This document shows positions 1 through 13,584 of a stretch of 13,584 nucleotides of DNA, piece by piece; the first letter of the stretch is position 1; each line of letters begins with the position of its first letter. The translations under genes were made by a program, and so were the position numbers. Below the pieces are notes generated by a model. That model was not told the DNA's origin, ran no database searches, and saw only the letters and a program-made list of their open reading frames with translations. The stretch is from Fibrobacter sp. (lineage in GTDB: Bacteria; Fibrobacterota; Fibrobacteria; Fibrobacterales; Fibrobacteraceae): the NCBI GenBank assembly GCA_021443065.1, contig JABUUR010000217.1:1-13584 (forward strand), written 5' to 3'.

Positions 1-1604
1 GCGTCTATCATCCTAAAATCGAGAATGGCCTTTTCGTAGTCGGGGGCGCGATTTTCGGCCTTGGCCATTTCTTCTTCGGCGCGTAGTTTTCGCTCTATGG
101 CGGGCACCAGGGCTGTTTTTATCAGGCTTTGCACAAGGCTTGCGTCGGTATAGTAGCTGCCGCTAAGTTTGCGGGCATTCCCCTTGGTGCTGCCGTCTTC
201 CACAATGCCGTTTTCGTCGCCCACGCCCACAAAGCTGAATGTCTTTGTTTCGGTGTTCACGTTGGGCACAAGTTCCAAAAGGCTTTCGTAAACGGAGCCA
301 AATTCTTCGGTGCCCATGTTGCGGTAGTCGGTAAAGGTCTTTACACCATCGATGTCGTTCCAGCGGAGCTGCTTGATGGCTTTCATCAGGTGTTCGTTGT
401 CCAGGTTGCAGGCATCCAAGAGGGGGCACTGGTCCTCCTTGAACAGGCCTCCCAGGGGCATAAGGTCCAGTTTTTCGTTGCCCTGCTGCAAAGCCTTGTA
501 CACCACCTTGATTCCCTGCCAAAGGTCGGTGTAGCTGTCGGTACGTATGGCCTTGCGGGCGCGTTCGGCCAGGCGGTGGATGCTGTAGCCTTCAAAATAG
601 AGTTTGTGGGCGGTGCGGTACCTTGGTTCCAGTTCCACGTCGGTGCCGCTTGGGCTTGGGTGTGCAAATATCAGGCCCCGTTCTTCAAGGGTGCTGAGGA
701 ACAAAAAACGGTAAACTTCCCGGAGCAGGGCCTTGTAGAAGGTCTGCTTGGTGTAGGGGCTGCCGTTTTCTACATCCAGGCGCTTGCCTGCATTGAGGGA
801 GTTGATAAGAACGTTGTTCCCCTCCCCCTTTGTTTTTAAAAATCCGGCACCCAGGTAGAGCAATGCGTTGGTCACTCCGGTACGGAGCCCTTCGCGAACA
901 CGGGTCCCCATGCGGATTCCATCGTTTCGCCACTTTTCCCAGATTTCTACACGGCTTGCGTGCATAAAGCACCACAGGGCCACAAAGTCGGGGTAACGGT
1001 CGTTGGAGAGAATGTCTTCGAGATTGAAGGATAGGTAGCTGGGGCGCACCAGGCTTTCGCTATCGCGCAAGAGCCGCAGTTCCTTGCCGTTGGAGGCAAT
1101 GGCCCAGGTGCATTCCACGCTTGCGTTCAAGAACATCTGTGCAAGGGCAAAGGCGCTTTTTTTGTGAATGGTAACGCCTTCGATATTGAATCGGGAGTCC
1201 GCCACGTCCAAAGGTAAGCTCGCGGGTGCAATGACTACGGGAACATCTTTTGCCACGTAGGTGGTCACAGGGTATTTTACATTGTTTATACTGGCTGCAG
1301 TAGTGGTGTGGGCTGGTCCATAATCCAGGGCGCTTTCAAAAAGGGCAAGAACAAACTTGCGGATGGACTCGTAGGAGGCTCCGTCAAGCCTGCCGCCGTT
1401 GGCCTTGGCGCACTCCGCATACAGTGCCTTTGCAATGCTGAAGGCGCGGCTCGTCTGGTCGCTGAACTTGATTCCGGGGAGCAGTTTGTAGTCGGATTCG
1501 CTCTGGTTAAAATACTTACGCTGGGTAATCTGCGCAATACTGTCGCTCACAAAGAGGGAACCCACAAGGTTCACTGTCGAAAATTCAATCTGGTGCTTCT
1601 TCAT
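1..1604 (-). CDS. N-terminal part of a large Eco57I/PglX/DrmMI-type adenine-specific DNA methyltransferase (truncated by window edge)
   Basis: This frame is open from an ATG at 1604 to the window edge, giving 534 complete residues. The N-terminal region matches what I know of the large Eco57I-class methylases: a helical block around residues 290-306 (YRFLFLSTLEERG), a YSIHRL-like segment, a GGLF segment, FGSVYESLLELVP, then RKLSGSYYT at about 478-486. In this family that last motif sits shortly before SAM-binding motif I. The visible protein ends in ILDFRMIDA, exactly where D-P/A-A-C-G-S-G would begin, so the catalytic NPPY-type motif IV must lie outside the window. The expected role is N6-adenine methylation of host DNA, as in DISARM DrmMI, BREX PglX or type IIG enzymes. 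It starts 26 bases after the 168-residue gene and has no strong ribosome binding site, so it is probably co-transcribed and translated by coupling. No nuclease motif is recognisable in the visible part. A stand-alone type IIG restriction enzyme remains possible. Confidence 0.85.
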   Translation of the reverse strand, partial: MKKHQIEFSTVNLVGSLFVSDSIAQITQRKYFNQSESDYKLLPGIKFSDQTSRAFSIAKALYAECAKANGGRLDGASYESIRKFVLALFESALDYGPAHTTTAASINNVKYPVTTYVAKDVPVVIAPASLPLDVADSRFNIEGVTIHKKSAFALAQMFLNASVECTWAIASNGKELRLLRDSESLVRPSYLSFNLEDILSNDRYPDFVALWCFMHASRVEIWEKWRNDGIRMGTRVREGLRTGVTNALLYLGAGFLKTKGEGNNVLINSLNAGKRLDVENGSPYTKQTFYKALLREVYRFLFLSTLEERGLIFAHPSPSGTDVELEPRYRTAHKLYFEGYSIHRLAERARKAIRTDSYTDLWQGIKVVYKALQQGNEKLDLMPLGGLFKEDQCPLLDACNLDNEHLMKAIKQLRWNDIDGVKTFTDYRNMGTEEFGSVYESLLELVPNVNTETKTFSFVGVGDENGIVEDGSTKGNARKLSGSYYTDASLVQSLIKTALVPAIERKLRAEEEMAKAENRAPDYEKAILDFRMID

Positions 1605-1630
1605 TTATATAAACCGCAAATCTTGAAAAC

Positions 1631-2137
1631 CTAGCCAAAAGATTCCTGGATGTAGGCTTCCATGGCATCCAGAACAGGTTTCTTGTTCAAAAAATTCTTA
1701 GGGAACATCAAATAGGAAATTATCCTGATTCCTTCCAGATCAACTGCGGGCAGGGCCACCATGTCGCACACGGAAGTTCCAAAATTCTTGTACCAGGTTC
1801 CAAAGAAAAGTCGTTCGCGCGCCCGTTCCTTGCCATCCACAGAATCCAGCACCACAAAAAGAAGAACTCCATCGTTTTTATCGAAGAATTCGCTTAGGAT
1901 CAATAAAATGGTATTCCGCGTTTTTTCATCGGATTCATTCACCTTGCGGTGGGCGTTTTTCCACTGGTTCTCAATGGATAGGGAATAAAAGCGGGTTCCG
2001 TCTGCAATGATTTTAATTTGGTCGGTGCTATCAAAAAATAAGACCGAAATCCTGTTGCCAGATTCAGTCTCAAATTCATACCCAAATTCGTTGGCCTGCC
2101 AACTATAATGGTTTAACGAGCTTAACTTCTGGGTCAT
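1631..2137 (-). CDS. 168-residue DUF6169-like protein of unknown function
   Basis: This is a soluble protein with no signal peptide or membrane segment. From memory its layout resembles DUF6169, a Bacteroidota-type family of about 150 residues. The matching parts are an N-terminal YEFETESGN strand segment, a central helix leading into LLFVVLDSVDGKERARERLF, an aromatic FGTWYKNF segment, and a C-terminal hydrophobic strand followed by a helix. The assignment is recalled, not searched. No catalytic residues are known for the family and I assign no activity. The ATG at 2137 lies inside the preceding 50-residue gene, in another frame, with a 35-base overlap. This suggests translational coupling and a paired function. 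The gene ends 26 bases before the methyltransferase start, within the helicase-methylase cluster. It could be a toxin, antitoxin, regulator or accessory defence factor. Confidence 0.8.
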   Translation of the reverse strand: MTQKLSSLNHYSWQANEFGYEFETESGNRISVLFFDSTDQIKIIADGTRFYSLSIENQWKNAHRKVNESDEKTRNTILLILSEFFDKNDGVLLFVVLDSVDGKERARERLFFGTWYKNFGTSVCDMVALPAVDLEGIRIISYLMFPKNFLNKKPVLDAMEAYIQESFG

Positions 2138-2255
2138 TGAATCCCTTCAAGGAACCATTTCTCTGAATATATGCGGAAACAGTCTTCTTGTCTCGCAAGA
2201 TTTTGCGAAACATATCGGCCGCGGTAGGCCCCTTTTGAATTGTTTCATTAAGCAT
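2103..2255 (-). CDS. 50-residue small protein, unknown, overlapping the DUF6169-like gene
   Basis: This short ORF begins with ATG at 2255 and ends with TAG at 2103-2105. An AGAGGTG Shine-Dalgarno sequence lies 4 bases upstream (2260-2266) and is among the best ribosome binding sites in the window, which argues that the gene is real. The product is basic and probably helical: TAADMFRKILRDKKTVSAYI is followed by a short RNGSLKGFND segment and a KLVKPL tail. I do not recognise a named family. The gene overlaps the following 168-residue gene by 35 bases in a different frame, the arrangement typical of toxin-antitoxin or otherwise obligately paired small genes. An antitoxin-like or small DNA-binding role is conceivable, but no helix-turn-helix or ribbon-helix-helix can be demonstrated. 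Confidence 0.65.
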   Translation of the reverse strand: MLNETIQKGPTAADMFRKILRDKKTVSAYIQRNGSLKGFNDPEVKLVKPL

Positions 2256-2259
2256 ATTA

Positions 2260-2266
2260 CACCTCT
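2260..2266 (-). promoter_or_regulatory. Strong Shine-Dalgarno site of the 50-residue gene
   Basis: On the minus strand this reads AGAGGTG, 4 bases before the ATG at 2255. It supports the short ORF as a translated gene and fixes its start. Confidence 0.6.
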
Positions 2267-2275
2267 ATCCATAAA

Positions 2276-2304
2276 TATATAAAAAATTCATGGTCAGGGA
2301 ACAA
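2276..2304 (-). promoter_or_regulatory. Candidate internal promoter upstream of the small gene pair and methylase
   Basis: On the minus strand, TTGTTC (2299-2304) is separated by 17 bases from TATATA (2276-2281). The 55-base gap between the DrmD-like stop and the 50-residue gene is markedly AT-rich. Transcription would start near 2269, leaving a leader of about 14 bases that contains the Shine-Dalgarno site. Such a promoter would allow the small genes and the methyltransferase to be expressed separately from the helicases. The match to a sigma-70 consensus is only partial. Confidence 0.3.
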
Positions 2305-2310
2305 CGCTAT

Positions 2311-5193
2311 CTACAATTCCTCGGGCAAAAGTACATAAACACCAATCAAATCGGCTGGTAGGCAGGCTTCCACCGTGGTGGAACCTGTTCGCTGGGCCGA
2401 AGCCGCACGCACCCGGGTGTGGTCATCAGACAAGGAGAGCGCACGTCGGCTGGCCAGTTCCTTGAAAATTTCGCCATTTTCGGCGTAAAAATCCAGGGCC
2501 TTCTGCACACTCTGCCTAATGACGGTTTCATCCATGTTGCCGGCGGGGGTTCCCTGGAGTAATGCCTCCACGCTCTCGCCCTCCATAATGTTTGGCACAC
2601 CTTCCAGATTCACGGCCACGGCAATTGATTCTTCGGCCATCATCAGTTTACGAGTGTTCTTGCCTGTATTTTTGAGTTGATAGCGCACCCTCAGCAAAAA
2701 AATGCCCGTGGTGACGTTCACTGCATCTGTCACATACGCCCCTGCACGGGAGGCTATTGGGTTAGCCCCGGTAAGAGCTCCTTCGAGCAGGTAGTTCGCA
2801 ATGCTTTCTACAACGGGGTTTGTACGGTGAATAAAGGTGAACCCCTGCGCAGGTGGGTATGTAAAGGAAATCTTGAACAGTTTCTTCGTAAGTTCCTGAA
2901 CCTTCTGGGGCAACTGAGATTTGATTTCCCTGGGAAGCGATTTCACATCGAGGGTATATCCGTGTTCGGAGACTTTTTCCCTGGCAATATTCAGGCGCGT
3001 AGTCGCAACTTCAAAAAAGTTCTGCACATCCTCGGAATCGCCAAGAGCCTCCTTGGTTTTGTCCCATTCCGGCATGATTTCGTCGGGCTTGAGGGACTGC
3101 TGACTGAAAATGGTCCTGTTGCGTTTTTCCTTTTCGATGGCGCTAGCCCACTTCTGGTTGGCCACCTTGATTTCGGCATATTCTTCTCCAAAATCCATTT
3201 CTAGCTGGTCGCTTTTGGCATTGGCCATAAAGCCCTTGAGGAGAGCGGCCTTGACGAGTGCCACACGGATGTTGCCGTTGTTCTCGGGAACGGGTACGGA
3301 AATTCCCAGGTCTTCCTTGATTTTTTCGGCCTTGCGTAAAATCACATTGAAAATGAGGCCATCCACGGGATTATCCTCGCCGTAGAACATGGTGCACCAC
3401 ACCTTTTTGCTCTGTTGGCCAAAGCGGTCTACGCGGCCTTCCCGCTGCTCATGGCGTGTGGGATTCCAAGCCAAATCATAATGGACAATGGCATTGAATG
3501 TATCCTGAAGGTTGATACCTTCGGAAAGACAGTCTGTAGCCACAAGAATCGGATTTTCGCTTTCGGCCAGCTCCGCAACCTTTTCGCTGCGTTCTTCATT
3601 GGTGAGTTCACCTGTGACACATGCGATGGTGTGTTTGGGAAAAACATCCTTGAGGCTGTCTGCAAGGTAATGGGCGGTTGCGATGTACTTGCAAAAGATG
3701 ACCGGGCGGTATGTATCGCCAGTTGCGGCAACTTCCTTGTAGCAATCCTTGATATGCTTTACAATGCATCTGAGCTTAGGGTCGTCGGATCGTCCACTGA
3801 GGAGTTCAGCCTTTTCGATAAGCATACGAACAGTCGCCGAATCCTCAAGAATGGGATTGACCAACTGGTCATTGATTTCGGAATCATCAGAACCGTCACA
3901 GGTGTCCTGTATATTTTCTTCGATGTTTGTCTTGAAGTCTTCAAGTTGTGCCCTGTCATCTTCGCTCAGATTACCCGAAAGCATATTCAATCGGGTAGAA
4001 AGAGCGCACTTTGCCGCTGCAGGACTTGAAGAAATACAGCGTAACAGAGCCAATGTAGCATACCACATCATTCGGCCCTTAAAACCTTTCTCCGCTTCGG
4101 CCTTGGAGGCTATGTCAACGCAATATTCGCGAACCTCCTTGAAGAATTCACCCCATTCGCCCGAGAGTTTGTAGGTCACTTCCTTCACCTTGCGTTCGGG
4201 AAAGCTAGCCTTGCCAGGGTAATTAATCACGTCGATGCGACGACGCTGAACAAGATGATGACCAAGGTCTTCGCGGAGTTTACGCTTTTCGGCATCGCTG
4301 TGGTCAACGGACAAGTCATCGAGCCTTGCAAAATCGGGCTTCAGGAGTGACAGAAGATTGTTGAACGCCTGTTCATCGCCAGAATGAGGTGTTGCTGTAA
4401 GAAGAATGATGTCACGTTCAGGCTTGTTGGCCAGTTCCTGCAAAAGATTGAATCGAAGCTGACGACCTCCGCCCACGCAACAGGTGTGTGCCTCGTCCAC
4501 AACCAGCATGGTATCGTCGCCGATGTGGGTCTTGAACCATTCACGGTGATTATCCGTCTTGATGTAGTCGAGACTAATGACGGATGCGGGATAATGGCTA
4601 AAAAACTCCTCTGTGCCACTGACTTCTTTTTCGAGGCCTGCAATAGATTTTGCCGTAACTCCCACGGCATCGATATTAAAATGTTCCTTGAGTTCACAGA
4701 CCCACTGGCTTACGAGATGGGGTGGGCAAAGAACCACGAACTTGGATATTTCGCCACGTTCGTAGAGTTCCTTTACAATGAGGCCAGCCTCAATGGTTTT
4801 ACCGATACCCACATCATCGGCTATCAGGAGGCGCACCACGGGCATTTTAAGTGCCATGAGAAGCGGCACCAACTGATAACTTCGAGGTTCAAAGGCCAAA
4901 TGGCCAAAACTGCGGAACGGTCCTGCTGCGTTTGTAAGCTTTAGCTTGAGGGAATCCCTAAGGAGCTTGGCAGAATCAAATCGGCCAATCTGATCGGCTG
5001 TAGGAGCGGGGAAAACGGCACTTTTCAGCTCAGAATTTTCAATTTCGGGCATGACAATCTGAGTTTCGTCATCAGTACCGCCCAAAGGGCGTAGTTTGAC
5101 GCAATCCTTTATGTCGCAGGGTTCCACGACCCATTCGCGACCGCGGATATTCACAAGCGTTCCTAGGGGATATTTCAGCAATTCTTCCGACAT
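2311..5193 (-). CDS. SNF2/HepA-family SF2 helicase-translocase, DISARM DrmD-like
   Basis: This 960-residue protein is a complete SF2 ATPase of the SNF2/HepA branch. A short N-terminal beta-rich region (about 8-60, including NIRGREWVVEP) resembles the start of DrmD-type proteins. The first RecA lobe carries Walker A DDVGIGKT (126-133), DEAH (233-236) and motif III TATPH (266-270). An acidic linker around 405-450 separates it from the second lobe, which has ATDCLSEGINLQ (552-563) and arginine-finger motif VI QREGRVDRFGQ (583-593). The final third is helical with no recognised nuclease. The likely role is ATP-driven translocation on or remodelling of double-stranded DNA in phage defence, as inferred for DrmD in class 1 DISARM; BREX BrxHII is a related alternative. 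The ATG at 5193 lies 8 bases after the preceding stop, and its Shine-Dalgarno AAGGA (5199-5203) overlaps that stop codon, indicating tight coupling. All core motifs are intact. Confidence 0.9.
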   Translation of the reverse strand: MSEELLKYPLGTLVNIRGREWVVEPCDIKDCVKLRPLGGTDDETQIVMPEIENSELKSAVFPAPTADQIGRFDSAKLLRDSLKLKLTNAAGPFRSFGHLAFEPRSYQLVPLLMALKMPVVRLLIADDVGIGKTIEAGLIVKELYERGEISKFVVLCPPHLVSQWVCELKEHFNIDAVGVTAKSIAGLEKEVSGTEEFFSHYPASVISLDYIKTDNHREWFKTHIGDDTMLVVDEAHTCCVGGGRQLRFNLLQELANKPERDIILLTATPHSGDEQAFNNLLSLLKPDFARLDDLSVDHSDAEKRKLREDLGHHLVQRRRIDVINYPGKASFPERKVKEVTYKLSGEWGEFFKEVREYCVDIASKAEAEKGFKGRMMWYATLALLRCISSSPAAAKCALSTRLNMLSGNLSEDDRAQLEDFKTNIEENIQDTCDGSDDSEINDQLVNPILEDSATVRMLIEKAELLSGRSDDPKLRCIVKHIKDCYKEVAATGDTYRPVIFCKYIATAHYLADSLKDVFPKHTIACVTGELTNEERSEKVAELAESENPILVATDCLSEGINLQDTFNAIVHYDLAWNPTRHEQREGRVDRFGQQSKKVWCTMFYGEDNPVDGLIFNVILRKAEKIKEDLGISVPVPENNGNIRVALVKAALLKGFMANAKSDQLEMDFGEEYAEIKVANQKWASAIEKEKRNRTIFSQQSLKPDEIMPEWDKTKEALGDSEDVQNFFEVATTRLNIAREKVSEHGYTLDVKSLPREIKSQLPQKVQELTKKLFKISFTYPPAQGFTFIHRTNPVVESIANYLLEGALTGANPIASRAGAYVTDAVNVTTGIFLLRVRYQLKNTGKNTRKLMMAEESIAVAVNLEGVPNIMEGESVEALLQGTPAGNMDETVIRQSVQKALDFYAENGEIFKELASRRALSLSDDHTRVRAASAQRTGSTTVEACLPADLIGVYVLLPEEL

Positions 5194-5198
5194 AAATT

Positions 5199-5203
5199 TC
5201 CTT
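5199..5203 (-). promoter_or_regulatory. Shine-Dalgarno overlapping the upstream stop codon (translational coupling of the two helicase genes)
   Basis: On the minus strand AAGGA is followed after 5 bases by the ATG at 5193, and it overlaps the TAA (5202-5204) of the giant helicase gene. Ribosomes ending the first gene would be placed to start the second, which suggests that the two helicases are made in fixed proportion. Confidence 0.55.
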
Positions 5204-8200
5204 AAAGTTCTTCCTCAAGACCAGGGAGTTTTGCCCTGTTCCCATTCAAATTTTTAAACCATTCCTCTGGGGTTTTCCCGATGGCTATAAAGCTATAGCT
5301 TCGGCCAGTAAGATAGCCTTGCATTTCTTCTGATGGTTTTTCATCCAGTAAAACAAGGCGGCCAGCCTTCCATAGGGCAAGAACCTTATAGGCACCGCCG
5401 TTGATTTCCTTATTGTAGGCATCGGGACGAATGCAGCCAATGGAATTGATGATATCGTCCAGGGAACGTGCATCGTCATTTTCTTCTACAGAGGTTTCCA
5501 CTTCTGTAGCAACCTTGTCTACGGTGGCATTTGCCAGATTTATCAAAATTTTTAGAGCATCCTCATCGGTTCTGTCGATGAAACTGTGGAGAGGCTGGTT
5601 AAAATAGCTGAGAAGGCACTTGTAGCAACCGCAAATGCACCCTGCCTCTTTATTTTTAGCAATTTCGGTGTCGGTCAAGGCTTCCACTGAATTCGGAGAA
5701 ATCCCTTCTTCTGCTCCTTCCCAGGTATAATGCATAATGGCCAAGGCGCGGCGGGCAATCTTTGCCATAGACTCAGGATTCTGCACCAAGTCGGTCAAAA
5801 CACCGGCACCGCCTTCGGATGCCTCATAGAACAGCAAACTGTGGCAATCCTCCTCATTAGGGAGTTGCTTTACAGCCAATTCAGACTGTTCAATCTGGTA
5901 TTCTTCCTCAATGGCCCGCTGGAGTGCCGAAGCTACTGTTGCCATGGTGGCCTTGCTGTATGGAGTAGGTTCCACCAAGCCGCGTTTTGGTTCATATACA
6001 AGAACATTTTTTGTATCTTCCACGAAAGGCACAATGCGCTGAGGAGTCACTTTGAAATTGGAGCTATCCTTTTCATCCTCATCGTAATCAGCTTCCCCTG
6101 GATCCGATTCCCATTTTCCAGTCATGGGGTTGATTTCAAAACCCTTTACGGACATATTCTTGCGTTTGCGCCAGCCAAGGTTTAAAACCCAAAGTTTTGC
6201 ATTAGGACCATAGGTCAATTCGCCAACCAAATCGTTATCAAGATTCAGGTTGGTCTTTGTAAAGCAGAGCCGCCCCTTGTCGTTTGCAAAACGGTAGATA
6301 GTCTGCAGGTCATAACCCTTACGAAGACGCTCCTCTTCGTTTGCCGAAATTCGGGTACTGGGTTTGGTTTCCACAGTCTCAATGCGATACAGGGTGTCAA
6401 TCACACTTGCTGTAGCCAAGGGCTGGCCGCATTTCTCACAGCGTTCAACAGTCTTGTTGCCGTCGTGACCGTAACCGCATACATCGCAGACAGCCATAGT
6501 CTGGGTTGCAAGTTTTTCGTTGGCGGTAGCTTGCCCATTGGCGGAATTGAGCTTTGCCTTGTACACCTTGAAACGCCTTCCCTCATGATAGATAATGCTC
6601 TGCGGGCCAAATTCGGAGATAGCAAGGAAACGCGGACGGCTCACCAAGGTGCCTGCGTCATCTTTTTTGCTGGCAAGATTACCCTTCACTGACGGAATCC
6701 AAGCCATCAGAGGAAGCCGCGGAAAATCGTAGCCGGGCAAAAATCCCTGGCTTGCCAAATAACGGTACGGATAGAAATCGCTGTTTTTGCTGTTGGATTT
6801 TCCTAGCAAAACATCGAACTGCTGCTTTGCGTCGCGGTGACGCTGTTCGGCACGAGTGCGGTCAACAGCTGCGGCAGACGGACTCATGGCAACTTTATGT
6901 GCCTCATCCATCTGCATCTGGATAGACCTAAATAGGGTGCGCCATCCATCGAACGCAGCATTGAAATCTTTCTTTACGCGGCTAATCACCTCGTCTACGT
7001 ATTCATCCTGAACCCAGTGTTGTTTGAGTTCGTCATTGGAAAGACTCGACCTTACATTTGCCATGACAGCCTTGGCTTCAATCTTTGCAGCATTCTTGAT
7101 GTCTTCATCGTCAAGAAGCCTTTCTAAATCCGGATTCAGCTCAAGTTTGTTACCCGACATCGGATTCATCACATTCTCGAATATGGAACTACCAAACTCA
7201 TAATGGAGTTCCTGGAGCCAAACGGAATGAATGTGACTGGTAATTAGATCCTTGTTGGTAATATCAAGAGTCGGTGCATTGACAACACCCGAAACCATTT
7301 CTTCGCGCTTTTCGAAATACCACTGGTCATGTGGGCTCATGGAAGAACTGTAGGTCACCACGAGGGCTGGCTGGCCAGAACGACCTGCACGGCCGCTGCG
7401 CTGGGCGTAGTTACTTGCAGTAGGCGGTACGTTGCGCATATACACCGTATTCAAACTAGAAATGTCCACACCAAGTTCCATTGTGGGGGAACAATAAAGA
7501 ACAGGCAAACGCCTAAGTTCCTCGCCGGGGTGTTCCGCATTCCATTCCTTCAAATCCTTTTCTTGATAGCGGAACTGGAATTCTAGGCGTTTACGGTCCT
7601 GTGCATCCACCTGTGCTGTATGCTCGTGGGCAGTGTATTCGTAGATATAGCAATTATCATCATTTCTACAGGCAGCCTTCAAGGCATCCTTGACACCGTT
7701 GTAGACAGAACAGAAAAAAGCATTATCACGGGTTTCTATCTTAGAAACTTCGGTATTCTTGCCCAAGCACCATTCCATCGCATTGGCGTGGAGCTGCCAT
7801 CCATCGGCAGTCTTGTGCACGATATCAGCAGTCTGGGCAATCACCAACATATCGATGACCAGATTACGAATCAGATCCGCATTGCCCTTGCCTCTGATGA
7901 CGCTCTCCATTTCAGTATGTTTCCATACGGAGGCATTCTTGATGGCCTTGGAAATTTGAGAATTCTGAGCAAGGGATACCGTAGCGTAATTTCTTTTACC
8001 TTTACCCTTTGCCAGCTTTTCCCCAGAATCATCAACGTAATTTGCCGAATTCGGCTTTTCATTATAGGCAAAGCCCCATTTTTCAACAAGGTCCAAATAT
8101 GAGGTCGTAATGATCTTATCCTGTTCGCTCTTCTTGAGATAATAAGAGTCTATGCAAAGTTGTTCCTTCATAATGCGGAACAAAACATGGTAAAGTTCCA

Positions 8201-10550
8201 GGCGCTGTGCCGGATTCAGCCTTGCAAGACAAGAGTTCCCCACAAAACGCTCGCCGTCATTGCAAAGATTCTTCAATCCAGAATAGCCTATGTGGATCAT
8301 ACCGAGCATTTCAAGGGATGGGTTATTGTTCTTCCAGCCAGAGGACAGCTCATCCATCAGACGATAACCAAGAACAAACTTCGCCTCACTCTTGACATCG
8401 GCAAGTGCCTTGGGCTGATCGACCTTCGGATTCAGCATATATTCCTTGAGTACGTCCCTGTTTCGGGAGTCAAAGCCGAGAGCCTTGTGTACTTCCTCAG
8501 CCAGCTTGTCGTAGGTCAGAACGCCATCATTATTCTCTAGGGCTCCAAGTAGAGCCCCACGGAGAGTCACGGTAAAAACAAAATCGTTGAAATGGCCAGC
8601 CTGCAAAGCGGCATCCTGACGGTTGTCGGTAAAGCCAAGCATCTTACGGACATCATTATCCCCCACATCATTTTTATAGGGATTTTCCTTGAACAGCTGA
8701 TTCAAAATCGCAAGGGTGAGCACGGTGGTTGCCGAGGAACGGCCCTCACCACTGAGGCCAGAGAGTTTGTTTCGATCACTTCCAAAAGGCTTATACTCGA
8801 AACCGCAGCAGGGGCAAAAACGCACCTTGCCAGGAACGTACCAATAGGCTGTATTGTAGGGTTTCTTCTCAATATTTCGCTCGCCTGTAGCAGACACATA
8901 GTATGGCTGAGGCTGAAAGGGAACAAGATTTTTTCTTACAACAGGAGCACCATTCTTATCAAAGTCCCACCAGCTTTCAGGAAGGTCATCTTGTCCCTGA
9001 TATTTGTAATCGCTGTCAAATTTTCTAGGAACGAGAAAACCATTATATTCATAGTTCTCATCTGTAGGCATTTCGCTGATGTTGCGCGGTTCCCAAACTT
9101 TTGCCTCTTCATTGTAACGTGCCGGGAAAAATTCTTGGCCACATTCACGGCAGAAGTAGGCATTGAAAAGGCGCACCTTCTCGTTCTCGCGCCCAGGTGC
9201 ATACACCTGTGCATCCAGAGTCACCTGACGTTTGCCTTCTTCTTCAAGGGTACAAAGAACATTGCCTGGACCACTGATAAACTGATGCAACTTGAACGCA
9301 AATGGCTTGCGACCATTTTCATCTTCGAGGCTATGTGCCACAAGCAGGTAGTCTTCCAAAACTTTTTGAGCTTGTTCAACGGAAACATTCCCATCGGAGG
9401 CAAGTTTCAAGACGGCATTCTTCAAAGTCATGGGTTTTGCACGTTTTGCTTTTGTAGCCACCGGTTTGTCAATTCCAAGGGTAAGTTCCACCCATACAGA
9501 AAGAGGGTCTTTGCGGAAATCTTCGACCGAAACGTATGCCTTGACACCTTGTTGCAAACGCCGATTCAACAAAGGCTTCACCTTATCAAGATTCAGGTGC
9601 GCATCCGTTGCCTGAGCCAGGGTTTCTGTAATCACATTCACAGGCGCAATGCTGGTACCAAACAGTTTTGAAGCCACCTTTGCCACAGTCTCAATCTGAT
9701 GCTGTTCCGTACCTGTATTATCCATCGTCGCAGACGTTCCAATACAGACAAGTCCTTCAGCCTTCGTCTCACGGCGAAGACGACGCACCAGAAGGGATAC
9801 ATCTGCGCCCTGGCGACCACGGTATGTATGCAGTTCGTCCAAAACAAGGAATCTAAGTCCGCCGCAATGTTCCATTACAGCCTTATCCACATCCGTACCA
9901 CGTGTAAGGATAAGTTCCAACATCATATAGTTGGTAAGGAGAATATCGGGAGGATTTGAGGCTATTTTCTTTCGTTCTTCTTCACTTTCCTGACCCGTGT
10001 AACGTGCCACTGTGAACGGCATCGCATTTGGAGCATAACCACGCAAAAATTTGTTGATTTCTTCAAGCTGGCTATTGGCAAGAGCATTCATCGGGTAGAT
10101 GATGATGGCGGAGGTTTTTGCAGTATTGTCAGTATGTCTGGCTCGGAGAATGGCGTCCACCACAGGAATGAAGAAGGAAAGGCTCTTGCCCGATCCCGTA
10201 CCTGTAGTAACCACATAGCTCTGATTCTGCGCCGCAAGAGAAATAGCTTGAGTCTGATGCTGGTAAAGAGTCATCACTTTACCATTGTTGCCATTTTCAT
10301 CCTTCTTGACCTTAAAAATTTTGGAACATTCGTAATCAAGAGTTCCATTTTGGCATAAATCGTCAATAGTCCCGTTAGTCTGATAGTTGGGATTTATCTG
10401 AATCAGTGGGTCGGGCCAATAGCGGCCGTTGTCATATTCAGCATCCACAACGCTTTTAATGTCGGAAGCTCGAAATTTGGTAAAGCTACGAGAAAAACGT
10501 CTGTACTCTTCTACCACAGCATCGCGATAACCAAATATGTTCTGTGCCAT
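5202..10550 (-). CDS. Giant SF2 helicase with C-terminal DUF1998 module, DruE-like / DISARM-related
   Basis: Numbered from the ATG at 10550, this is a 1782-residue protein. The N-terminal SFTKFRASDIKSVV and WPDPLIQINP segments precede a first RecA lobe with Walker A TTGTGSGKS (115-123), YPMNALANSQ, DELH (238-241) and GTSATM. About 750 residues intervene before the second lobe, with ELGVDIS (about 1025-1031) and QRSGRAGRSG (1050-1059). Cysteine clusters that probably bind zinc lie at 467/470, 579-582 and 1355/1358/1371/1374. The C-terminus is a clear DUF1998 module: GGAG (1580-1583), then Cys 1638/1640/1642/1645, His 1655 and a DR pair. This family helps mediate phage defence in Druantia (DruE, usually about 1800-2100 residues), and DUF1998 occurs in DISARM DrmB. 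The ATG is preferred over a TTG at 10631 because it has a GGAG 10 bases upstream and the conserved family start follows. A related alternative is DpdJ. Confidence 0.9.
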   Translation of the reverse strand: MAQNIFGYRDAVVEEYRRFSRSFTKFRASDIKSVVDAEYDNGRYWPDPLIQINPNYQTNGTIDDLCQNGTLDYECSKIFKVKKDENGNNGKVMTLYQHQTQAISLAAQNQSYVVTTGTGSGKSLSFFIPVVDAILRARHTDNTAKTSAIIIYPMNALANSQLEEINKFLRGYAPNAMPFTVARYTGQESEEERKKIASNPPDILLTNYMMLELILTRGTDVDKAVMEHCGGLRFLVLDELHTYRGRQGADVSLLVRRLRRETKAEGLVCIGTSATMDNTGTEQHQIETVAKVASKLFGTSIAPVNVITETLAQATDAHLNLDKVKPLLNRRLQQGVKAYVSVEDFRKDPLSVWVELTLGIDKPVATKAKRAKPMTLKNAVLKLASDGNVSVEQAQKVLEDYLLVAHSLEDENGRKPFAFKLHQFISGPGNVLCTLEEEGKRQVTLDAQVYAPGRENEKVRLFNAYFCRECGQEFFPARYNEEAKVWEPRNISEMPTDENYEYNGFLVPRKFDSDYKYQGQDDLPESWWDFDKNGAPVVRKNLVPFQPQPYYVSATGERNIEKKPYNTAYWYVPGKVRFCPCCGFEYKPFGSDRNKLSGLSGEGRSSATTVLTLAILNQLFKENPYKNDVGDNDVRKMLGFTDNRQDAALQAGHFNDFVFTVTLRGALLGALENNDGVLTYDKLAEEVHKALGFDSRNRDVLKEYMLNPKVDQPKALADVKSEAKFVLGYRLMDELSSGWKNNNPSLEMLGMIHIGYSGLKNLCNDGERFVGNSCLARLNPAQRLELYHVLFRIMKEQLCIDSYYLKKSEQDKIITTSYLDLVEKWGFAYNEKPNSANYVDDSGEKLAKGKGKRNYATVSLAQNSQISKAIKNASVWKHTEMESVIRGKGNADLIRNLVIDMLVIAQTADIVHKTADGWQLHANAMEWCLGKNTEVSKIETRDNAFFCSVYNGVKDALKAACRNDDNCYIYEYTAHEHTAQVDAQDRKRLEFQFRYQEKDLKEWNAEHPGEELRRLPVLYCSPTMELGVDISSLNTVYMRNVPPTASNYAQRSGRAGRSGQPALVVTYSSSMSPHDQWYFEKREEMVSGVVNAPTLDITNKDLITSHIHSVWLQELHYEFGSSIFENVMNPMSGNKLELNPDLERLLDDEDIKNAAKIEAKAVMANVRSSLSNDELKQHWVQDEYVDEVISRVKKDFNAAFDGWRTLFRSIQMQMDEAHKVAMSPSAAAVDRTRAEQRHRDAKQQFDVLLGKSNSKNSDFYPYRYLASQGFLPGYDFPRLPLMAWIPSVKGNLASKKDDAGTLVSRPRFLAISEFGPQSIIYHEGRRFKVYKAKLNSANGQATANEKLATQTMAVCDVCGYGHDGNKTVERCEKCGQPLATASVIDTLYRIETVETKPSTRISANEEERLRKGYDLQTIYRFANDKGRLCFTKTNLNLDNDLVGELTYGPNAKLWVLNLGWRKRKNMSVKGFEINPMTGKWESDPGEADYDEDEKDSSNFKVTPQRIVPFVEDTKNVLVYEPKRGLVEPTPYSKATMATVASALQRAIEEEYQIEQSELAVKQLPNEEDCHSLLFYEASEGGAGVLTDLVQNPESMAKIARRALAIMHYTWEGAEEGISPNSVEALTDTEIAKNKEAGCICGCYKCLLSYFNQPLHSFIDRTDEDALKILINLANATVDKVATEVETSVEENDDARSLDDIINSIGCIRPDAYNKEINGGAYKVLALWKAGRLVLLDEKPSEEMQGYLTGRSYSFIAIGKTPEEWFKNLNGNRAKLPGLEEEL

Positions 10551-10611: not shown

Positions 10612-10711
10612 CAATCAAATCTTGCAAGCAATCTAGCAGATCTTTTCTAAAGTAGAATCAACTTCATCAGAAATGTTCCAATAGCAGCATCCAAGATTCC
10701 CCAAAAAACAA

Positions 10712-11386
10712 TCAACGCAGATGTTTAGCCAACCAATCAATCAATATTCCCACGTATGGTGGCTTTTGCGATTCAGAATTCCATCGCGCTATCGTTTTCC
10801 TAGCATACGAACCTATGTCTGCCTTGCCTCGTTTACTCACAATTTCTATAAGTTTCTTCTTCGCTTCCATCCTCGCTCGAGGCAATTGAATTATCTCGCA
10901 ATTCAGGTTAAGAACATCATTAAGGTCTTTATTGACCCGTTCATCCTCTGAATAGATAATCCCATTATGTTTGTACTTAATAGACACCAGCGTTTGCGGC
11001 AACAAGGGGTTCACCGTCAGGAATGCATTTTGTCTATGAGCATCGCAAGTCAAACGGGATATACCCAGATGATATTGGCTTTGGCTTGTCGGATTCCGAT
11101 TCCCCGAGCAGACTGCAAGCATATTCCTGTAATCCAACGCTTTTGCATTATCAGAAGTGCTTTGCGGGTCTATATGCTCAATACTTGCCGGGGGATTATG
11201 TTTTTGCGGGTTTTGCGGAATACGGCACATACAATAGGCGCACAATCCCCCTTGCTCTTTTATCAGGCTCTCTAAAATAACTTTATGCCGTTCTTTCAAG
11301 CCATCGTAAGTGGGTTCACCGTTTCTGTTGTCAAGCCTATATTCAGTTAATTCGCGAGGTTCCGCACCCTTTTTTATAGGTATCAC
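10712..11386 (-). CDS. ptuB: HNH endonuclease, PtuB / TIGR02646-type Septu effector
   Basis: This 224-residue protein has the features of the TIGR02646 HNH family that partners AAA ATPases in Septu and in retron-Ec78 effectors. The N-terminus KKGAEPRELTEYR is typical. The zinc-binding and catalytic region comprises CAYC (49-52), IEHIDPQS with Glu70-His71, the YRNMLAVCSGN segment (Asn88, Cys93, Asn96) and a second metal-ligand region CDAH (114-117). The expected activity is metal-dependent cleavage of nucleic acid, licensed by the partner ATPase. The start codon is GTG (11384-11386), preceded by a GGGG-containing Shine-Dalgarno-like stretch, and lies 11 bases after the stop of the ATPase gene, so the two form one operon. 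The core is intact with no truncation. The family assignment is from recognition of motifs; membership in Septu proper rather than a retron effector is inferred from the absence of a reverse transcriptase here. Confidence 0.85.
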   Translation of the reverse strand: MIPIKKGAEPRELTEYRLDNRNGEPTYDGLKERHKVILESLIKEQGGLCAYCMCRIPQNPQKHNPPASIEHIDPQSTSDNAKALDYRNMLAVCSGNRNPTSQSQYHLGISRLTCDAHRQNAFLTVNPLLPQTLVSIKYKHNGIIYSEDERVNKDLNDVLNLNCEIIQLPRARMEAKKKLIEIVSKRGKADIGSYARKTIARWNSESQKPPYVGILIDWLAKHLR

Positions 11387-11397
11387 TTACAACCCCA

Positions 11398-12699
11398 CTA
11401 CAAATTCTGTTCCAGGTCAAGTTCCACACGGGCTGCTGCAAGTTCCGGGTCATTCTCCCCAATTTTAGCAGCGATTTCACCAAGAATTTTTTCTGCACCA
11501 GCATAGTCGCTATTGTCCATGGCTGTATGAAAGCCTTCAAACATTTTCAGCACATCGCTGGGGCGAGATGTAGATTCCATTATCGACTGCAAAATGCCAT
11601 TGACATCTCTGCCGTAAACCTCAACTGGAGCAGTCTCTACGCCAACATCCGTCAAGATCCGTATATTCTCCTGTTTAACAGAATTTATGACAGACGGCGC
11701 ATGGGTACTCACAATGAACTGTACCTTCGGGAATATAGAGAGGAGAATACCAAGAATTTTCTGCTGCCAAGATGGATGCAAATGCAAATCCACCTCATCG
11801 ATAAGAACGACACCAGAAGTTTCCGTAATTACATTTTCAAAAAGGTCCGGATTCAAGATTGCCATTCTGTAGGCGATATCGGCAACAAGGCTAATGGAGC
11901 AGCGGTAACCATCGCTCATCAATCTTAAGGGAGCACGAACTTTGCTTCCATTTTCCTCGTAAACAAAATCTATTCCCTGTTCAAAGCGATTGTAAATTAC
12001 CTTAGAATCTTTTTTTCCGGTAATCCGATTAAAGAACTCCCCCATAGCCTTGCGCACGGCATGGTATTCCGGAATGGATTCTTCGCGTTCAAATTCCGTG
12101 CTCGCCATGTTGTAGAACCATCTTTGCAAAAGTTTGTCATTGGCGGTTCCGTCTAGGGCATCCACGTAGCCATCTGTTCTTGTATTTTTCTTTGCGAAGT
12201 CTTTCTTTGTATCGCGATGCAAACTCCAAAGCCTTCCTGTTCCGTAATAGGCAACGATTGGAAGTATTAAGGATTTATCCCCCTTTTTCAAACGATTCAA
12301 ATATTCCTTAGCAATGCCTGTTATTTCCTTCGATTCCGATAAAGATCGAGTGCTATCTTTTGACGTTCTTGAACGGTTCAAAAGGATCTTATTTCCATCA
12401 ATAATTCCACAAACCCTTATTCTTGATGGATATTGTGGTTGAACATCAACAACACTTCCCGTTTCTATCCACTTATTGCGGACATCATCATTTTGAATGC
12501 CATCCAGTCTCTTGTTGTCGATTTTCGTGATTACCTTCATTGCTGCAGTATACGAAGCAACGGCAACTTGCGCAGCTTCCAGTATGGAAGTTTTTCCAGT
12601 CCCGTTCGCACCTACAATAACCGTAAGACGATTATCAAAATCCACATGGCACGTTTCGTAGCAACGGAAATTTTCAATATCAATGGAAGTCAATCGCAT
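11398..12699 (-). CDS. ptuA: AAA/ABC-type ATPase, PtuA-like (COG3950/OLD-related) Septu component
   Basis: This 433-residue cytosolic ATPase has an ABC/SMC-like arrangement. The start MRLTSIDIENFRCYE is typical of RecF/OLD-type proteins. Walker A is GANGTGKT (30-37), a YYGTGRLW segment (151-158) is characteristic of COG3950, an LMSDGYR signature lies at 260-266, Walker B is VVLIDEVDLHLHP (297-309, Asp301/Glu302), and the H-loop is STHAP (331-335). The roughly 100-residue C-terminal extension is mostly helical and acidic, as in PtuA-like partners of HNH nucleases. No TOPRIM domain is present, which argues against an OLD nuclease; the nuclease is supplied by the downstream HNH gene. In Septu and retron-Ec78 the ATPase assembles with PtuB and controls its nuclease. 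A 56-base gap separates it from the upstream MORN gene, so it probably begins a new transcription unit. All motifs are intact. Confidence 0.88.
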   Translation of the reverse strand: MRLTSIDIENFRCYETCHVDFDNRLTVIVGANGTGKTSILEAAQVAVASYTAAMKVITKIDNKRLDGIQNDDVRNKWIETGSVVDVQPQYPSRIRVCGIIDGNKILLNRSRTSKDSTRSLSESKEITGIAKEYLNRLKKGDKSLILPIVAYYGTGRLWSLHRDTKKDFAKKNTRTDGYVDALDGTANDKLLQRWFYNMASTEFEREESIPEYHAVRKAMGEFFNRITGKKDSKVIYNRFEQGIDFVYEENGSKVRAPLRLMSDGYRCSISLVADIAYRMAILNPDLFENVITETSGVVLIDEVDLHLHPSWQQKILGILLSIFPKVQFIVSTHAPSVINSVKQENIRILTDVGVETAPVEVYGRDVNGILQSIMESTSRPSDVLKMFEGFHTAMDNSDYAGAEKILGEIAAKIGENDPELAAARVELDLEQNL

Positions 12700-12755: not shown

Positions 12756-13439
12756 CTACTCCCTATAGGACATTTTCTTTTTCAGCTTGCCGTTTTCGTG
12801 GTATTCGTTCCATTCGCCCACACGGGTGCCCTGAGAATAATTGCCCTGAAGTTTCAGCTTACCATTGGGGTAAAATTCCTCGTACAATCCGTTGGGGCGA
12901 CCTTCATCGAAGACCACATGACTTTCCAGTTTGCCGTTTTGGTGGTAGGTTTCCCAGTTGCCGTACAACGTGTTGTGCTTACAAGAACCCTTGGACTTGA
13001 TGTTGCCGTTTTCGTAGAACGCCTCGGAGACTCCTTCACGAAGGCCGTGAATGTAGGCCAGCTTTTCCTTGGGGTTGCCGTTGGGGTAGAACACTTCGAA
13101 AATTCCTTCCAGGATGCCGTTCACGTAATTTGCCTTGGCGGCAATCTTCCCATTGGAATAGTAGGTTTCCCACAGGCCATCCCGGATGCCGTCGCTCACA
13201 AACTTCTGGACGCGGTCATGATCCGTGGACTTGATAAAGATGGAAGAAGTGGTATCGGCGATGGGCTCCTGATCAATGCCTACGGTATCGGCGGCTTTGG
13301 TGTCAGCTTCTGCGATGCCGGAGACATCCATGGTGGGCATTTGGGGAACGTCGTTGTTCATGATGCCCTGGGTGGATTTCTGGGGGCCGGCGCATGCCAC
13401 CAGAAGGATTGCGGAAAGAGCGAATAAAATCTTTTTCAT
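12756..13439 (-). CDS. MORN-repeat (YwqK-type) lipoprotein
   Basis: From the ATG at 13439 this is a 227-residue predicted lipoprotein. A signal peptide MKKILFALSAILLVAC ends in a lipobox (LVAC, lipidated Cys16). A low-complexity linker of about 65 residues follows. Then come six tandem repeats of about 23-24 residues (roughly 86-227) with the pattern G-x-W-x-x-Y/F-Y-x-NGK-L and a Y-x-x-G connector, the MORN_2 variant. Such proteins are exported to the envelope and their role is unclear; the label 'YwqK antitoxin' often attached to them is not evidence of a toxin-antitoxin system. The chosen ATG has a strong AAGGAAGG Shine-Dalgarno (13446-13453) and begins the signal peptide exactly, whereas an in-frame ATG at 13478 would add 13 polar residues and overlap the upstream gene. 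It probably forms a tandem operon with the upstream MORN gene and is not an obvious part of the defence cluster. Confidence 0.9.
   Translation of the reverse strand: MKKILFALSAILLVACAGPQKSTQGIMNNDVPQMPTMDVSGIAEADTKAADTVGIDQEPIADTTSSIFIKSTDHDRVQKFVSDGIRDGLWETYYSNGKIAAKANYVNGILEGIFEVFYPNGNPKEKLAYIHGLREGVSEAFYENGNIKSKGSCKHNTLYGNWETYHQNGKLESHVVFDEGRPNGLYEEFYPNGKLKLQGNYSQGTRVGEWNEYHENGKLKKKMSYRE
12759..13184 (-). repeat. Six tandem MORN-type coding repeats of about 70 bases
   Basis: Six diverged units encode the MORN_2 motif. They are visible on the plus strand as recurring ccgtt(t/g)-like blocks near 12790, 12860, 12932, 13005, 13077 and 13149, so the period is 69-72 bases. Repeats diverge at third positions, indicating old duplication rather than recent expansion. 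Confidence 0.75.
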
Positions 13440-13445
13440 TGTTGA

Positions 13446-13453
13446 CCTTCCTT
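13446..13453 (-). promoter_or_regulatory. Shine-Dalgarno of the MORN lipoprotein gene
   Basis: AAGGAAGG on the minus strand lies 6 bases before the ATG at 13439 and decides for that start over the in-frame ATG at 13478. Confidence 0.65.
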
Positions 13454-13458
13454 GGCGA

Positions 13459-13584
13459 TTACCTTCTGAATTGGACATTGCCGTAACTCGAAGACTCGGA
13501 ACTGTAAGTGCCCTTGGAGCGCAGCTTCCCGGTACTGTAATAATACTCGAATGCCCCCACCTTCACTCCATTTTTATAAGTGCA
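13459..13584 (-). CDS. C-terminal end of a second MORN-repeat protein (partial)
   Basis: The minus strand is open from the window edge to a TAA at 13459-13461, giving 41 residues. They include one recognisable repeat unit, GVKVGAFEYYYSTGKLRSKG, with the same aromatic and NGK/TGK-L pattern as the complete MORN lipoprotein downstream. A serine-rich tail ending in QFRR follows. The 19-base spacing to the next ATG, which holds only that gene's ribosome binding site, indicates a tandem pair of paralogues in one operon. The N-terminus and any signal peptide lie outside the window. Confidence 0.75.
   Translation of the reverse strand, partial: CTYKNGVKVGAFEYYYSTGKLRSKGTYSSESSSYGNVQFRR

Follow-up and report, generated by a model that had tools for sequence, protein, structure and literature searches.

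What kind of defence system is encoded where a giant helicase with a fused DUF1998 domain is followed by an SNF2-like ATPase and the beginning of an adenine methylase, and which of its proteins, if any, would cut DNA? The window analysed here is the whole of contig C18 (13,584 nt) of a Fibrobacter metagenome-assembled genome that is 70% complete. Its main genes all lie on the minus strand, in the order MORN-repeat protein, PtuA, PtuB, helicase, SNF2-like ATPase, DUF6169 protein and the 5' part of the methylase (Table 1), and Rfam and tRNA scans of the window gave no match. We find here that the window contains the first part of an operon of ARMADA type I, a recently described bacterial defence that is likely directed against phages.

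Table 1. Features of the window, with the evidence for each.
Feature	Position	Strand	Description and evidence
PglX/Eco57I-class adenine methylase (ArmB-equivalent), first 534 aa	3..1604	-	runs off the contig end
DUF6169 protein	1631..2137	-	168 aa; in the slot between SNF2 and methylase; Pfam PF19666
SNF2/RapA-like ATPase (BrxHII/DrmD-like; ArmA-equivalent)	2311..5193	-	960 aa; ORF, profiles, motifs, tree
YprA-like giant helicase (ArmC-equivalent)	5202..10550	-	ATG start, 1,782 aa; fused DUF1998/MZB; ORF, Pfam, PADLOC, motifs, tree
Helicase C-terminal domain, residues 1655-1782	5202..5588	-	corresponds in alignments to the Vsr/DUF559-type nuclease of relatives but lacks its catalytic motifs
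Helicase DUF1998/MZB zinc-binding domain, residues about 1540-1646	5613..5933	-	Pfam MZB, 25.4 bits (cut-off 24.2)
Helicase motif VI QRSGRAGR, residues 1050-1057	7380..7403	-	motif check and alignment
Helicase DExH box DELH, residues 238-241	9828..9839	-	motif check and alignment
Helicase Walker A GTGSGKS, residues 117-123	10182..10202	-	invariant in 20/20 aligned rows
Septu pair PtuA (433 aa) and PtuB (224 aa)	10712-12699	-	PADLOC PtuA 442.6 bits, PtuB 193.9
MORN_2-repeat protein	12756-13478	-	upstream of Septu; lipoprotein-like start by eye

The observations in the preliminary description of this DNA are borne out. It had reported two different SF2 ATPases with intact motifs (confirmed by the motif check and by Pfam), the N-terminal part of an Eco57I-class methylase (79% identical to the N-terminus of the full-length relative in locus L007), tightly spaced genes on one strand (the gaps between the four co-directional ORFs for helicase, SNF2, DUF6169 and methylase are 8, 173 and 26 nt) and a helicase sharing one chain with DUF1998 (Pfam places MZB in the same ORF). 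Missing from it were the DUF6169 gene, the upstream Septu pair and the eroded nuclease domain. Besides MZB/DUF1998, the helicase matches Pfam DEAD (95.8 bits) and Helicase_C (35.6 bits) and has CxxC motifs at residues 467, 579, 1355, 1371 and 1642, with the pairs 467/579 and 1355/1371 invariant in all 20 aligned rows; an alternative in-frame TTG start at 10631 would lengthen it to 1,809 aa. The SNF2 protein bears GIGKT (129-133), DEAH (233-236), TATPH (266-270) and QREGRVDR (583-590) and matches SNF2-rel_dom (63.8 bits) and Helicase_C (67.0 bits) in Pfam. The DUF6169 protein (39.7 bits against a cut-off of 27) has no homolog at 1e-5 in the loci of relatives, among the best 80 of at least 577. 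The final residue of the methylase fragment is the D that opens motif I (DPACGSGHF in most aligned relatives), so that the catalytic half falls outside the window; this missing half was not found in the window's own 70% complete genome. Alone, the fragment has no Pfam match, and a fold search with the methylase N-terminus gave none at E 0.001 or better; the full-length methylase of the Fibrobacter locus L007 (1,391 aa) matches Eco57I at 85 bits.

ARMADA was described by Bell et al. (bioRxiv, September 2025; PMC12458937), whose main text presents it as a 'missing link' between DISARM and Druantia, with a helicase closest to that of Druantia and two further proteins in common with DISARM, and gives the general order of type I as helicase, BrxHII-like ATPase and PglX-like methylase. 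The window belongs to this type: its helicase, with fused DUF1998, falls in the type I group, and it is followed by a BrxHII/RapA-like ATPase and a PglX-like methylase, with DUF6169 inserted and the methylase partial. Traits of the type I helicase are OB-CON-DUF1998 fused in one chain, a BrxA-like helical insert after RecA1, and zinc modules. The preliminary description had seen a distinct defence type linking DISARM and Druantia; trees, co-occurrence and gene order uphold the link, but the type itself is not new, having been published as ARMADA type I (Bell et al., PMC12458937, main text).

A phylogeny and a census of co-occurrence had been suggested as checks on this reading, and neither of the outcomes named as refuting it arose. 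For the census, genome loci were found with a 17-sequence alignment, and among the best 80 of at least 577 confirmed loci, which are thus not a random sample, 77 have the SNF2 gene and 68 the methylase. Eleven of the 12 loci lacking a methylase stop at most 109 bases past the last core match; in the twelfth, L021, the helicase is followed by about 1.4 kb containing an ORF whose product looks DUF1016/YhcG-like by eye. For the phylogeny, 23 type I rows lie on one side of a 33-row helicase tree (SH-aLRT 99) whose outer rows are DISARM, Druantia III, ARMADA II and BRIGADE-like sequences, and 23 type I rows stand apart from DrmD, DpdE and ARMADA II in a 28-row SNF2 tree (support 99); thus both proteins fall outside class 1 DISARM. 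These are quick trees, not bootstrapped, whose outer branches are long, and they include neither the reference sequences of Bell et al. nor Druantia I and II. The type I label follows gene order in 22 of the 23 helicase rows and similarity in L098 (Thermus), where no SNF2 gene is annotated beside the helicase. In a first helicase tree of 39 rows, which included DpdJ and other long rows, the type I rows were split (2 changes) and DISARM attached among them. We take the split as a long-branch effect: with L107, L093, L094 and L088 left out, the type I rows came together as in the 33-row tree. The attachment point of DISARM is nevertheless unsure, since the outcome depends on including the long rows.

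ARMADA type II is marked by the order SNF2-methylase-helicase and a RelE-GajB-like helicase after these. Represented by an E. coli plasmid (L090) and, by gene order, Allomeiothermus (L095), it has the same three families in that order, with a gene annotated as an ATP-dependent helicase (L090) or a 3'-5' exonuclease (L095) coming next, and it lies outside the type I group in both trees; gene order and trees thus rule out type II membership for the window. The type II rows do not form one group in either tree, and for L100 the type II label has a UvrD-type gene next to the helicase as its sole basis.

Of 88 aligned type I helicases, 31 retain the stretches [AP]DF and DGPHH (with SSLE..W), which we take to be Vsr catalytic residues, and 57, among them the window's, have lost them; the 88 are a sample of the window's closest relatives, scored for erosion at three columns. 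The eroded 57 include two cut copies (L041 and L043), and the scoring has borderline cases: L056, which reads DDTHH, was scored as motif-bearing, and both L088, which reads DGSPH, and L076, which still has ADF, were scored as eroded. Pfam found DUF559 above its cut-off in all five motif-bearing tails scanned and no match in the tails of the window and L007. When the motif columns were removed, 52 eroded rows formed one clade with support 100 in an 86-row tree (plain LG+G4), on which the kept/eroded label needs 3 changes and the two nearest sides of the eroded clade are motif-bearing. This clade spans Fibrobacterota, Spirochaetota, Riflebacteria, Verrucomicrobiota, Thermodesulfobacteriota, Bacillota, Myxococcota and Pseudomonadota, and the window's helicase belongs to it. 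D[GDS]xHH does not occur within the last 200 residues of any of the 119 long proteins among the 120 homologs listed from 7,997 scored.

Bell et al. (PMC12458937, main text) predict an active Vsr-type nuclease at the C-terminus of the helicases of both ARMADA types; the window differs from their type I in the erosion of this domain and in its DUF6169 insert, and its relatives differ in a downstream HNH gene. We therefore file the window as an ARMADA I variant, its Vsr motifs being lost. When a model of its tail (pLDDT 70.7) was used in a fold search, nothing matched at E 0.001 or better, and PvuRts1I ranked 6th (E 0.38, not significant), which leaves the alignment and the description by Bell et al. 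as the grounds for Vsr ancestry. While ARMADA I itself is known, its nuclease-eroded branch was not found described in the literature searched. Where the Vsr motifs are lost, as in 57 of the 88 helicases, either another protein does the cutting or no cut is made. As a separate observation, a second, distant ARMADA-I-like cassette is present in another genome of the same genus (L088, genome G030, 5695-17695), with a helicase tail reading DGSPH and not DGPHH.

What else, then, might cut? Downstream of the methylase, relatives carry a gene of the HNH_2 endonuclease family (Pfam PF13391 in both proteins scanned); in PADLOC it comes closest to PDLC04132 (HNH, no description) and to PDLC03546 (HNH, type II restriction enzyme). 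The L070 copy was used to search 32 genomes hand-picked from the 80 loci (L054 left out) and matches 31 of them; in 29 of the 32 the gene follows the methylase on the same strand, between 13 nt and 10.7 kb further downstream. By branch, linkage was found in 17/17 eroded and 12/15 motif-bearing genomes, or in 22/25 overall when the seven eroded loci already known to be positive (L010, L013, L031, L036, L040, L042 and L070) are set aside. The gene is missing beside the cassette in three of the 32: L057, where about 2.7 kb of contig is left, L080 and L081. Matches were tied to the cassette contig by coordinates, with contig size agreeing in 24 of the 29; L010 and L070 have the gene inside the locus. 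The copies of L020, L046 and L048, tied by coordinates alone, have internal stops (3/29) and were left out of the alignment and correlations. An apparent restriction of the gene to the eroded branch (11 eroded and no motif-bearing loci) was rejected as an artefact of short flanks, since the whole-genome search found it in both branches. Because it also adjoins helicases that keep the Vsr motifs, the HNH gene is no simple replacement for Vsr.

The HNH gene is co-inherited with the helicase. Pairwise distances of the two proteins correlate at r 0.92 (27 genomes; 0 of 5,000 permutations reach 0.92), with values of 0.93 in the 17 eroded and 0.83 in the 10 motif-bearing genomes. For the commonest cargo gene, which encodes an AAA protein with weak similarity to LmuB (45 bits), the correlation with the helicase is 0.53 (25 loci), and in the same 11 genomes r is 0.91 for HNH and 0.49 for the cargo AAA gene. 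Residues H170, N188 and D197 of the HNH protein show at most one miss among 29 sequences, of which the 27 used for the correlation have an aligned helicase row. On plasmids, all five records with HNH coverage of at least 80% (2 Acidithiobacillus, 3 Acinetobacter) also have the helicase; HNH_2 is a broad family, with 136 plasmid records matching at 1e-5, 131 of which cover less than 80% of the query. Among 15 reference records, a good match occurs in Acidithiobacillus and Croceicoccus only, both ARMADA I; the match in a Nostoc DISARM record is weak, and nothing matches in the type I records from Nocardioides, Deinococcus, Thermus, Chlorohelix and one Roseomonas. Across the window's genome and 59 relatives, matches fall below 1e-50 in G028, a genome of the same genus, and in G032, and are weak in four others; in the Fibrobacter relative G032 the match is strong and the SNF2 gene was not detected. 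The window's own genome (70% complete) has no match, its contig ending inside the methylase, before any HNH position. The main text of the ARMADA paper mentions HNH once, in a reference title (Bell et al., PMC12458937), and a literature search outside subscription journals and the ARMADA figures and supplements, which listed a single paper treating ARMADA at length, turned up neither the eroded branch nor any mention of HNH as part of ARMADA I. Downstream of HNH in another Fibrobacter locus (L108, from L007, 3490-5333), genes of 372 and 242 aa were seen, the latter resembling, by eye, the Gp37/Gp68 family that also occurs near ARMADA I in Nocardioides.

How might the operon work? We lean towards the explanation that the window holds the front of an ARMADA I operon whose helicase has lost the motifs of its likely nuclease tail and which restricts unmethylated phage DNA, a separate HNH endonuclease being predicted to do the cutting. 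The methylase would mark host DNA at target sites, and the SNF2-like ATPase and giant helicase would engage unmarked or replicating foreign DNA and move along it. The eroded tail might then have no more than a structural or docking role, and the cut would come from the HNH_2 protein that relatives encode beyond the methylase, downstream. This explanation draws on gene content and order, clade membership, motif loss, and the linkage and co-inheritance of HNH in relatives, from which we infer the steps above. ARMADA type II, the only type assayed for anti-phage activity in the main text of Bell et al. (PMC12458937), protects E. coli, requires all four of its genes and causes no growth arrest; the function of type I is accordingly assigned by homology, and by analogy type I may likewise protect without growth arrest.

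Could the cassette instead defend without cutting? The ATPases would then stall or unwind phage DNA, and HNH would be a mere frequent neighbour. We think this unlikely: motif loss throughout a clade is consistent with it, as are the need of ARMADA II for its helicases and its action without growth arrest (Bell et al., PMC12458937, main text), and several other type I records lack HNH, yet every eroded-branch genome searched has HNH linked, the three HNH residues are nearly invariant, and co-inheritance with the helicase is far tighter than for the cargo gene compared.

A nuclease closer at hand in the window is PtuB. The PtuA ATPase and PtuB HNH pair upstream of the helicase is a Septu system, and the pair might supply the missing nuclease, the window and Septu forming one combined system. 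We hold this to be very improbable: although PtuB matches HNH-type profiles and is co-directional with the helicase, ending 161 nt before its start, neither PtuA nor PtuB has a match at 1e-5 in the relatives' loci (best 80 of at least 577), which rules the pair out as an integral partner. PtuA was found at 1e-40 in one of 59 other genomes, one in which no SNF2 gene was found, and the partner that is conserved is a different HNH gene, downstream of the methylase.

There is hardly any chance that the window is a canonical class 1 DISARM system with DrmA and DrmB fused. Like class 1 DISARM (records L105 and L106), it has an SNF2-like protein related to DrmD (NCBIfam's first match, 343.5 bits, under the cut-off of 610) and a large methylase, of which the fragment matches PADLOC DrmMI at 34.3 bits; however, DrmA and the DUF1998 protein are separate genes in DISARM and a single chain here, gene order differs from both records, no DrmC lies within the window (one is annotated in L106), the best profile of the helicase is DruE and not a DISARM model, and the helicase and SNF2 trees, at the sampling used, separate the window from DISARM. 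Membership of a Druantia system is just as remote, since the helicase, though its best PADLOC profile is DruE1 (320.5 bits), stands apart from Druantia III (the only Druantia type in the tree) and has SNF2 and methylase partners in place of Druantia genes, and no DruH-like profile is among the PADLOC matches listed, up to 25 families per protein, for the seven window proteins. Druantia III (L091, L101) shares the giant YprA-like helicase but has an STY4851/ECs_5259 protein next to it, presumably of DruH type, with no SNF2 gene and no methylase directly beside the helicase; tree position and the absence of DruH among the listed profiles rule out type III membership. The SNF2 protein's best PADLOC profile is the DpdE model (582.7 bits), ahead of DrmD (305.3), yet the SNF2 tree sets the DpdE of the Dpd locus (L107) apart from the type I group, and the other Dpd genes are absent from the window; the match to HmaA of Hma (195.5 bits) falls below both scores.

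Returning to the restriction explanation with HNH as the cutter, the wider branch of ARMADA I may be organised around that gene. The genes between methylase and HNH vary, and they include Thoeris and HEC-01. In Fibrobacter succinogenes (L008/L109, 5945-9143) a Thoeris-like set of three TIR genes and ThsA with STALD occupies this interval, and in a Spirochaetota genome assembled from a metagenome (L012/L111, 4911-6760) an HEC-01-like AAA gene with a DUF4276 partner stands directly before HNH. We judge it an even proposition that this branch, which includes the window, is a chassis of four genes and not three, with helicase, SNF2 ATPase and methylase in front, a dedicated HNH endonuclease further along and a swappable cargo bay between methylase and HNH, and that the presence of HNH beforehand let the helicase's Vsr nuclease decay in one large clade. 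If so, Thoeris, HEC-01 and the weakly LmuB-like AAA gene would be swapped in and out of the bay, and HNH would set the boundary for calling complete ARMADA I operons, which appear as carriers of other defence systems. The main text of Bell et al. (PMC12458937) assigns the type I nuclease to the Vsr domain of the helicase; the co-inherited HNH protein is a concrete alternative candidate.

The other slots of the cassette vary as well. Gaps above 300 nt occur between SNF2 and methylase in 12/39 eroded versus 2/26 motif-bearing loci, and between helicase and SNF2 in 1/45 versus 7/27; these counts miss some loci owing to longest-ORF calling, a rule that lost the SNF2 genes of L015 and L050, both found by tblastn. 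The slots contain AAA_14/DUF4143 proteins (PADLOC PDC-S01), AlbA_2/HATPase_c_4 proteins, a YhcG nuclease, an opposite-strand PIN protein, and proteins whose IrrE-like match scores close to the cut-off of Pfam; the opposite-strand ORFs in L030, L049 and L051 may be chance ORFs, except for the PIN match in L030. Further inserts between SNF2 and methylase are the DUF6169 gene of the window and a Phd/VapC pair in the Acidithiobacillus ARMADA I locus L103 (14590-20365), which also has an IS21 element between helicase and SNF2. Lastly, a Nocardioides plasmid (L096/L104/L122) has three neighbouring sets of genes, DISARM drmA/drmB, ARMADA I and an AAA/McrC pair, one after another.
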